A stretch of DNA of 54,044 nt. Source: Methanobacteriaceae archaeon (GTDB lineage: Archaea > Methanobacteriota > Methanobacteria > Methanobacteriales > Methanobacteriaceae). This document shows positions 9,233 to 54,044 of this stretch, piece after piece. The notes under the pieces were generated by a model. It saw only the letters and a list, made by a program, of their open reading frames with translations. It was not told where the DNA came from and searched no databases. The DNA lies in assembly GCA_030539615.1 (NCBI GenBank), contig JAUNXU010000002.1, positions 1 to 54,044 of the forward strand, in the 5' to 3' direction. Numbering within the stretch: position 1 is the first letter of the stretch; every line of letters begins with the position of its first letter. Made by a program: the position numbers and the translations under genes.

Positions 9233-9304
9233 AGTCCCGTAGGGTAGTGGCAATCCTCCTGGTCTTTGGAACCGGGGACAGCGGTTCGACTCCGCTCGGG
9301 ACTA
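9233..9304 (+). tRNA. tRNA-Gln (anticodon TTG)
   Basis: The 72-nt sequence folds as a cloverleaf. The acceptor stem is AGTCCCG/CGGGACT with discriminator A9304. The anticodon arm is CTGGT-CTTTGGA-ACCGG, giving anticodon TTG for Gln (CAA). The T arm is GCGGTTCGACTCCGC. The 3' CCA is not encoded, so it is added after transcription. Its G/C content stands out sharply from the flanks. In methanogens such a tRNA is normally charged through Glu-tRNA(Gln) and an amidotransferase. Confidence 0.95.
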
Positions 9305-40696: not shown

Positions 40697-40966
40697 ATGG
40701 GAGACGTATTAGGAACAATTAAAATAATGCCTGAAAGTCCTGAAGTAGACTTAGAAGCATTAAAAGAAGCAATTAAAGCAGCAATACCTGAAGGAACAGA
40801 TTTTGAAAAAATAGAAGAAGAACCTATTGCTTTTGGTTTAGTAGCTTTAAATGTTATTGTAGTTGTTGGGGATTCAGAAGGTGGGGTTGAACCAGCAGAA
40901 GCTGCATTTAATAAATTAGATAATATTGCAAGTGTAGAAGTTGTTGATGTAAGAAGATTAATGTAA
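40697..40966 (+). CDS. ef1B: Elongation factor 1-beta
   Basis: aEF-1beta exchanges GDP for GTP on EF-1alpha. The 89-residue protein fits the archaeal family exactly, with GTIKIMPESPEVDLEAL at the start, AFGLVALNVIVVV and the C-terminal SVEVVDVRRLM. The strong ribosome site AAGGAG is well placed. It is the last gene of the run from the M50 protease through zinc ribbon, with a T-rich terminator region after the stop (40964-41010). Confidence 0.96.
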   Translation: MGDVLGTIKIMPESPEVDLEALKEAIKAAIPEGTDFEKIEEEPIAFGLVALNVIVVVGDSEGGVEPAEAAFNKLDNIASVEVVDVRRLM

Positions 40967-51473: not shown

Positions 51474-51609
51474 TAAGTAAATATATGTTTTTTATCATAT
51501 TTAAATTAATAAATAGATTTTAATGATTTTAAGATAGATTTATCAATAAAAAACAAAATATTAATTAATAATATTTAAAATAATTTTTTTTTATTAGGTG
51601 AAAATTTTC

Positions 51610-53103
51610 ATGTCAAAAATTACAGATGTTAGTAGAAATGAACTATATACAGTATTAAGATATATTGGTAAAGTATGTAAATTATTAGCAATAGCAATGA
51701 TTATACCTGTAATAATTTCTTTCATATATAATGAAGAAGGTTATACAATTCCTTTTCTTTTTACAGCAGGTATTACATATTTAATTGGATTTTTATTAGA
51801 AAAATATTTTATATCAGAAACAAAACTTTCAACAAAAAGTGCAATGATTTTTTCAACAGTAATCTGGTTAGTAGTTTGTGCATTAAGTGCATTACCTTAT
51901 TTTTTAACAAGTGAACTTTCCTATTTGGATAGTTTTTTTGAAGCAATGAGTGGATTTACAACAACAGGATATAGTATGTATTCTGATTTAGAATTAGTTT
52001 CATATACTATTCATTTTTGGAGAGGATTAACACAATGGTTAGGTGGTTTAGGAATAGTATTTATAGCATTAGCTGTTATAAATTCAATAAAAAATAATGT
52101 AAATTTATTATACCTTTCAGAAGGACGAGAAGAAAGAATATTTCCCAGTATTAGAAAAACTACCAGAGTAATATTCTATATATACACTGGAGCAAGTATA
52201 ATAGGAATTATACTATATGTTATTGCAGGAATGCCTGTATTTGATGCAATATTCCATACATTTTCAGCAATTTCAACAGGTGGAGCTGCAATGCACAATA
52301 ATAGTTTACTTTATTACAATAATTTTTATATAGAATGTGTTGCAATGGCATTAATGATATTTGGAGCAACTAATTTTCTTTTAATTTATGAAGTTCTTAT
52401 GGGTAACTGGAAAGCATATTTCAAAGATATAGAAACAAAAGTATTCTTACCTTGCGTATTAATTAGTATTCTCTTAATATTATTAATGTTATGGGGATAT
52501 GATGCTTTTGGATCAAATATATTAGTTAATTTAAGATATGATATTTTCCAAGTATTTTCTGCAATAACAACAACAGGACTTCAAACAACATTTAATCCAG
52601 CTTTAAGTATAAAATGGGGAAGTATCGGAATGGTATTATTAACTTTACTAATGGTAATTGGAGGTGGATCAGGATCAACTGCAGGAGGATTAAAATGGTT
52701 AAGAATAGGTGTATTAACAAAAAGCATATTTTGGGAAGTTAAATCATATATACTACCTAAAAATACAATAGTAAAACAAGAAATTCACCATATAAAAAAT
52801 ATAAAAGTAAGTAATGAACAACTAAGAATAACAGGAATATTTGTATATACCTATATTGTAATGTTCATACTTTCTGTAGTTATCTGTCTTTTATTTTATG
52901 ATAATATACTAGATATAATGTTTGATGTAGCATCTTCATTAAGTAATGTTGGACTATCAAGTGGAATAATATCAAATACATCTCCCGTAGAAATAAAATT
53001 ATTATTCATTCTAAACTTTTGGATAGGACGATTAGAAATATGGCCTGCATTAGTACTAATAGGTTTAATAATAAAAAAAATAACATCTATAAAAAAAGAA
53101 TAA
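51610..53103 (+). CDS. trkH: Potassium uptake channel subunit TrkH
   Basis: TrkH is the membrane channel for K+ (or Na+) uptake. The 497-residue protein has four pore repeats with recognisable filter loops: SGFTTTGYSM, SAISTGGAAM, SAITTTGLQT and SSLSNVGLSS. The conserved LGGLGIVFIALAV and GGGSGSTAGGLKWLR regions are present. I start it at the ATG at 51610, because AGGTGA (51596-51601) is 8 nt before it; the GTG at 51598 lies inside that site. The regulatory partner TrkA is not in the window. Two or three extra hydrophobic spans at the start are usual. Confidence 0.92.
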   Translation: MSKITDVSRNELYTVLRYIGKVCKLLAIAMIIPVIISFIYNEEGYTIPFLFTAGITYLIGFLLEKYFISETKLSTKSAMIFSTVIWLVVCALSALPYFLTSELSYLDSFFEAMSGFTTTGYSMYSDLELVSYTIHFWRGLTQWLGGLGIVFIALAVINSIKNNVNLLYLSEGREERIFPSIRKTTRVIFYIYTGASIIGIILYVIAGMPVFDAIFHTFSAISTGGAAMHNNSLLYYNNFYIECVAMALMIFGATNFLLIYEVLMGNWKAYFKDIETKVFLPCVLISILLILLMLWGYDAFGSNILVNLRYDIFQVFSAITTTGLQTTFNPALSIKWGSIGMVLLTLLMVIGGGSGSTAGGLKWLRIGVLTKSIFWEVKSYILPKNTIVKQEIHHIKNIKVSNEQLRITGIFVYTYIVMFILSVVICLLFYDNILDIMFDVASSLSNVGLSSGIISNTSPVEIKLLFILNFWIGRLEIWPALVLIGLIIKKITSIKKE

Positions 53104-53301: not shown

Positions 53302-53318
53302 GGGAAAACTATATATAT
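53302..53318 (+). promoter_or_regulatory. Strong BRE/TATA promoter in gene-free DNA
   Basis: The sequence GGGAAAACTATATATAT combines a purine-rich BRE-like GGGAAAA with a long TATA box (53310-53318), close to the archaeal consensus for stable-RNA and other strong promoters. Transcription would start near 53342. No protein gene follows within 700 bp; a structured segment does. Confidence 0.5.
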
Positions 53319-53341
53319 GATGTTAACTTATACAATAAATA

Positions 53342-53575
53342 GTGCTTTGATGCACTATTAGTGTATTTTTGCACTAATTAAAAAATCAGACACTTTAAGC
53401 GAAAGATGATCATTAATATTAAAACCTTAAAAATTTTTCTATCATAGATCAAAATTTTTTTGGAGTGTAAAAGGGGGGTTTCCTGTCAGTAATGATAGGA
53501 AACTTGTATCATCTTTTTACGTGGAAATTCAAAATCCCCATTTAGAATCTTGATAAGATTTACCCCCTGATTTTT
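53342..53575 (+). ncRNA. Candidate structured non-coding RNA
   Basis: Downstream of the promoter-like element, the sequence is unusually structured and locally G/C-rich. At the start are alternating GTGC/GCAC elements: 53338-53345 can pair with 53352-53359, and 53357-53363 with 53372-53378. The main part has an 11-bp hairpin (53478-53488 with 53493-53503, one G-T pair) closed by GTAA, a GNRA tetraloop. A 6-bp hairpin AATCTT/AAGATT (53546-53551 with 53555-53560) follows. A closing stem joins GGGGGT (53474-53479) to ACCCCC (53562-53567), sharing two bases with the first hairpin. A T-rich run then ends it. It does not match tRNA, and I do not see RNase P or SRP RNA core motifs. It could also be a leader of a gene beyond the window. 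Confidence 0.5.
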
Positions 53576-53580
53576 AATTT

Positions 53581-54044
53581 ACTAATTCTATATTTTTTAA
53601 TAATTTTAAAATAATATTTTTCAAAAATATAAAAAATAAATCAAAATATTTATTACATTTTTAAGAACCTTAATTTGTGTTTCTACAACTTTCCTTTTAG
53701 TATATTTCTTTTTTTCTAGTGTGTTTAATTTTTAGTTCATTATATAGTTTTAATCATGATTACTATAATTATTGTTTTTAGTGTTGATTAAACGTATAAC
53801 TCTTGGGTGTTGCAGTATTTACAGTTATTATTAGTAGTATATTCTTTTTTTTGTATGTGGTTTGTGTATTATGAACTAGTTTTATCATGAAAAATGATTT
53901 TATAATATAAACAAAGAAAAAACAACATCAAACTAATTACATCTTACAAAAAAATAATACAAATTAAACAGTATTCAATACTATCTACTAAAAAAAGATA
54001 AATATATATGATATTTGAAAATTTTATAAAAATATAAGATTTTA
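53581..54044. other. Gene-free end of the window
   Basis: I see no coding sequence, tRNA or clear repeat in this AT-rich stretch. The T-rich tracts at its start may serve as the end of the candidate RNA transcript. The interval 53104-53301, between trkH and the promoter-like element, is equally featureless. Confidence 0.5.

Follow-up and report, generated by a model that had tools for sequence, protein, structure and literature searches.

The window analysed here, a 54,044-nucleotide stretch of Methanosphaera DNA, ends in about 940 bp that had been described as free of genes, and in this interval the original prediction placed a small RNA, undescribed and with a promoter of its own. Does the interval hold such a gene? 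The gap itself is real, as trkH occupies 51598-53103 on the plus strand and no convincing open reading frame lies between the TrkH stop and the window end at 54044. The proposed structured RNA, about 240 nt long, maps to 53339-53580 on the plus strand, where it had first been located. It is supported by the z-score of its fold and by a second copy elsewhere in the genome; we refer to the segment in the window as copy 1 and to the second as copy 2.

Promoter-like elements precede copy 1. A BRE/TATA-like element, GAAAACTATATATA, lies at 53304-53317 (plus strand) and is the sole exact match in the window to the BRE/TATA consensus RAAAAYTATATATA, in agreement with the near-consensus element originally described. 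With one mismatch allowed, RAAAAYTATATATA matches the window 5 times compared to 3.7 expected, which is the level of chance. Taken alone, the TATA box of copy 1 is therefore not beyond chance; it is credible because it is kept in copy 2. The initiator-like TTATACAATA at 53328-53337 (plus strand) is identical in copy 2, and the combination TATAT-N(12-18)-TTATACAATA occurs once in the window compared to 0.05 expected. Downstream of copy 2, the nitroreductase gene likewise has TTATACAATA after its TATA box. Transcription of copy 1 would start at about 53334-53341. At the other end, a C5 run is followed by a T-rich putative terminator (53563-53595, plus strand), and copy 2 likewise enters TTATTTTTATTTTTTTTT. 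By sequence, both copies have the BRE/TATA element at the correct spacing, as expected for a stand-alone archaeal sRNA gene.

The plus strand of 53339-53580 folds with a predicted energy of -67 kcal/mol (z -5.66), and 0 of 200 shuffled sequences folded as well. The minus strand of the same segment folds more weakly (z -4.03), and copy 2 has a z of -3.44. When window stretches lacking any ORF of 90 aa or longer were divided into 240-nt tiles, the segment ranked second of 84; the top-ranked tile, at 40719, includes a short protein frame. The G+C content had been described as far above the surroundings. This holds locally, with 29% for the segment overall and 36% in its 3' half compared to 15-17% in the flanks, but not against the whole-window mean of 26%, which is close to the 29% of the segment. 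A search of the whole window against Rfam 15 at the gathering score returned only a tRNA at 9233. The segment therefore has no family match, consistent with the original statement that it resembled no recognised RNA class. A SNORD42 match at a relaxed threshold was sub-threshold, on the antisense strand and had an E-value of 1.5, and we attribute it to chance. RNase P RNA and SRP RNA were also rejected as identities, since each has its single match in this genome elsewhere (C38:14186 and C43:15751, respectively).

The second copy was found by blastn against the segment's own genome (G000:C134:4932-5177, minus strand) and is 89% identical over 246 nt. The two copies are non-syntenic and their outer flanks do not align, so contig C134 and the window contig are not alleles of one locus. 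The end of C134 is the 3' end of an adhesin-like-protein (ALP) gene and matches further ALP loci of the genome at up to 95% identity, which places C134 in this genome. Copy 2 keeps the TATA box, TTATACAATA and every main helix. Its 5' plan is a TATA box (ATAATTTATATATG) followed by TTATACAATA and the first hairpin, with spacing within 1-2 nt of copy 1, and GATAATTTATATATG is its counterpart of GAAAACTATATATA.

Differences between the copies are unevenly spread. In the core (53377-53470), the copies differ at 2 of 94 columns, compared to 29 differences among the other 140 aligned columns (p = 1.7e-5). Paired columns differ at 7 of 109 positions and unpaired columns at 31 of 138 (p = 6e-4), where the helices were drawn with both copies in view, alignment artefacts inflate some of the differences, and some of the breaks in helices P4 and P6 come from shifts in the alignment. 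With no more than two copies, there is hardly any covariation to be seen, namely one two-sided change and a few one-sided compatible changes. The uneven spread of differences around the folded core is suggestive of selection.

The predicted structure begins with two short hairpins. Hairpin A (AUAGUGC/GCACUAU; 53339-53358, plus strand, as for all features below) is kept in copy 2, where its basal A-U pair becomes G-U. Hairpin B (UUAGUGU/GCACUAA; 53358-53377) is also kept, with one G-C pair changed to G-U and the apical A-U pair changed on both sides to U-G. The GTGC/GCAC stems of the original prediction are thus present, at 53339-53377. The strands of hairpins A and B can also pair with each other to give a single long hairpin, and for that piece taken by itself this is the fold of lowest energy. 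An outer helix, AAUUAAAAAAUCAG/CUGAUUUUUAAUU, would pair 53376-53389 with 53567-53579 in copy 1 only, as copy 2 lacks the 3' partner. Inside it, core helix P3 joins ACACUUUAA (53390-53398) to UUGGAGUGU (53460-53468), and both strands are invariant between the copies.

The 3' domain is closed by helix P4, in which the G5 run at 53473-53477 pairs with the C5 run at 53563-53567, as had been proposed; both runs are kept in copy 2 even though the sequence around the C run has diverged. P4 encloses P5, an 11-bp hairpin (53478-53503; z -5.67 alone) whose stem is invariant between the copies. This hairpin had been described as carrying a GNRA tetraloop. The stem and the GUAA loop are found in copy 1, but the GNRA loop is not conserved, copy 2 having GUUAU. 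A small hairpin, P6 (GUGG/CCAU; 53521-53541), reads AUGG/CCAU in copy 2, a change from G-U to A-U seen after a local 1-nt alignment shift was corrected by eye.

The core and the 3' domain may also be connected. AAAGAUGAU at 53402-53410 is the complement of AUCAUCUUU at 53508-53516, and the two could form a 9-bp pseudoknot. Both strands are invariant between the copies, and AUCAUCUUU lies within a 15-nt invariant island, GTATCATCTTTTTAC, that adjoins diverged sequence. The pseudoknot is tentative, since by a rough estimate one 9-bp match is about what chance would give in an AT-rich RNA. Across 139 genomes, the pseudoknot pattern was found only in the two copies and in one unrelated place.

The original prediction looked to homologous intergenic regions of other Methanosphaera for confirmation. 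These were not found: blastn and a covariance model detected no homologue in any of the 19 other Methanosphaera genomes. The covariance model likewise detected none in 119 other genomes of the family, nor did blastn on a 61-genome sample of the 139-genome set. Because the model (R1), which comprises the 157-nt core, was built from two nearly identical sequences, it could miss distant homologues. Weak R1 matches (E 0.002-0.1) proved on inspection to be coding sequence or to lack the core. No homologue was detected in phages or plasmids, and matches to the core pattern in viral and GTDB contigs, from exact-pattern scans, were chance by an R1 check. It should be noted that the host species is far from its congeners, with at most 41% identity for TrkH and at most 63% for the nitroreductase. 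The TrkH value is that of the window protein (51598-53103) against the best TrkH found in the 19 congeners. A second TrkH of the same genome, on C63, is 38% identical, and the window TrkH is an unusually divergent paralogue.

Copy 1 lies between trkH and what is probably an ALP gene just past the contig end, and copy 2 is flanked by an ALP gene and a nitroreductase/ferredoxin gene. Copy 2 starts about 190 nt past the ALP stop and about 120 nt upstream of the nitroreductase gene, on the same strand. The ALP gene next to copy 2 was recognised by its conserved 3' end, and the ALP-type assignment draws on two full-length relatives, which carry Ig-like, pectate-lyase-like adhesive and related domains. 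Beside copy 1, and outside the RNA, a conserved ALP leader occupies 53868-54044 (plus strand), with its own TATA box at about 54000-54009. It is 86% identical to C18:72-249 (minus strand) and 82% identical to a stretch of C38, and recurs at the ends of several further contigs. The C137 copy of this leader continues into an ALP-like signal sequence, so the ALP gene probably starts just past the window. As ALP genes are numerous in this genome, their association with the RNA may be chance. Adhesin-like proteins are believed to be the means by which cells make contact with other organisms of the gut.

Two further observations concern these repeats. A long leader seems to be conserved among the ALP genes, measuring roughly 350-400 nt from TATA box to coding start on C137, with further copies at C38:214-340 (minus strand), C82:10538-10586 and C137:1654-1712 (minus strand), and its repetition at contig ends is the probable reason for assembly breaks there. 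A second, weaker repeat (about 70% identical) lies at 53636-53862, between the RNA and the ALP leader, and has relatives at C58:12790-13012, C112:9779-9998 (minus strand) and C38:575-783 (minus strand).

Both copies lie upstream of same-strand genes, and hairpins A and B can re-pair as parts of switches do, so the RNA could act in cis, as a leader, riboswitch or attenuator for the downstream gene. However, the ALP and nitroreductase genes are unrelated, and the two copies do not form the 5' UTR of one kind of gene. The nitroreductase gene has its own TATA box after the T-rich stretch, and at both loci a separate TATA box, past the T-rich RNA end, appears to serve the next gene, which makes a leader or riboswitch unlikely. 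Moreover, nitroreductase orthologues of the congeners have no such RNA nearby, by R1 with filters off. Taken together, we consider regulation in cis improbable. A protein-coding origin is more doubtful still. Copy 2 contains an open frame of 49 codons (MIINIKTLKIFLSWIKIF...) that starts at ATGATCATT and spans the core (approximately C134:5099-4953, minus strand), and could in principle be the intact version of a small peptide gene or of a protein gene that has decayed in copy 1. Against this, copy 1 breaks the frame with an in-frame TAG and 1-nt frame-shifting indels, the 49-aa product has no match in Pfam, no ribosome-binding site is seen, and the frame crosses hairpins while conservation tracks structure. 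With no frame conserved between the copies and no Pfam match, the segment is as expected for a non-coding sRNA gene, and we give the coding explanation very little weight.

The two copies occupy unrelated sites, do not match in their flanks and are restricted to one species, and could thus also be what a small non-autonomous mobile element (a MITE, for example) or the RNA of one (for example a TnpB guide RNA) left behind in ALP-rich islands. Copy 1 has an inverted repeat, AATTAAAAAATCAG/CTGATTTTTAATT, and both copies adjoin ALP genes, which break the assembly. On the other hand, copy 2 lacks the inverted repeat, leaving no shared terminal repeat, and there are only two copies, with no related sequence beside any other gene of the genome. 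Conservation of the TATA box and initiator, and uneven divergence around the folded core that suggests selection, also argue against an element of this type. We therefore regard mobility as an unlikely explanation.

We searched for duplexes of both RNAs with the ALP leader, a helicase-like mRNA, the nitroreductase 5' end and the trkH 5' end, and none exceeded shuffled sequences. A complement of 23 of 24 nt between the 3' part of the RNA, around TTGATAAGATTTACCCCC, and the helicase-like mRNA (L003 1501-1524; G000:C87:4148-4171) is absent from copy 2 and is probably chance.

At the level of sequence, the analysis establishes structure beyond chance, duplication, and a promoter and helices kept in both copies, together with what appear to be separate TATA boxes for the next genes. 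With no Rfam match, these features support the original prediction, and the explanation that we judge likely, with some reserve, is a species-restricted, two-copy gene that has its own promoter and encodes an undescribed, structured non-coding RNA about 240 nt long. Transcription would proceed from the BRE/TATA/initiator promoter at 53304-53337 to a 3' end in the T-rich stretch at about 53570-53595. The transcript would carry two short 5' hairpins able to re-pair with each other, followed by the extremely conserved P3 core and by a G5/C5-closed domain in which the 11-bp hairpin sits and from which a 9-bp pseudoknot may reach back to the core. Such an RNA probably acts in trans as a folded molecule, as a regulator or with a protein partner, rather than as a leader of the next gene. 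A bolder reading would have it found a new class of pseudoknotted, switch-capable archaeal RNA of adhesin-gene islands, trans-acting and with fast turnover between species, with a role in, for instance, the control or diversification of surface adhesins; this we consider speculative and improbable.

If the two-copy RNA gene is real, it offers a concrete starting point for RNA-based regulation in gut methanogens; we found no small RNAs of Methanosphaera or Methanobrevibacter in the literature. It would also exemplify fast turnover of structured RNAs, with two copies in one species and none in the relatives tested. The position beside ALP genes makes a regulatory link worth testing, although the duplexes tested gave no such link.

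The kind of RNA is known, and the family is not described in Rfam 15. Searching for RNAs in AT-rich genomes by G+C content is an established approach (PMC6429828), and many candidates from comparative screens are limited to certain lineages (PMC2864571). Orphan motifs from such work (GC-IGR, PMC6429828; comparative genomics, PMC2864571) are likewise long, G+C-rich, structured and intergenic in AT-rich genomes, with no gene product, but they rest on many covarying homologues, while the Methanosphaera RNA rests on two copies from a single species. The archaeal RNase P RNA (RF00373) and SRP RNA (RF01857) are also stable structured RNAs with their own genes, and at about 290-320 nt they are roughly comparable in length; they differ in that one of each is present elsewhere in this genome, and the RNA of the window gave no match to either. 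TnpB-associated guide (omega) RNAs of IS200/IS605 elements are likewise structured and can move around a genome. Unlike omega RNAs, which overlap or follow tnpB, the Methanosphaera copies have TrkH, ALP and nitroreductase genes as neighbours, with no tnpB adjoining either site and no other copy in the genome. Archaeal intergenic sRNAs such as Haloferax volcanii sRNA132 (PMC6560208) and the Pyrococcus abyssi ncRNAs (PMC3124441) are likewise independently encoded, intergenic and non-coding, and belong to the type that scans of AT-rich genomes for G+C content and structure bring to light. The comparison with these RNAs was made through Rfam, and the Methanosphaera RNA may be the more extensively folded.
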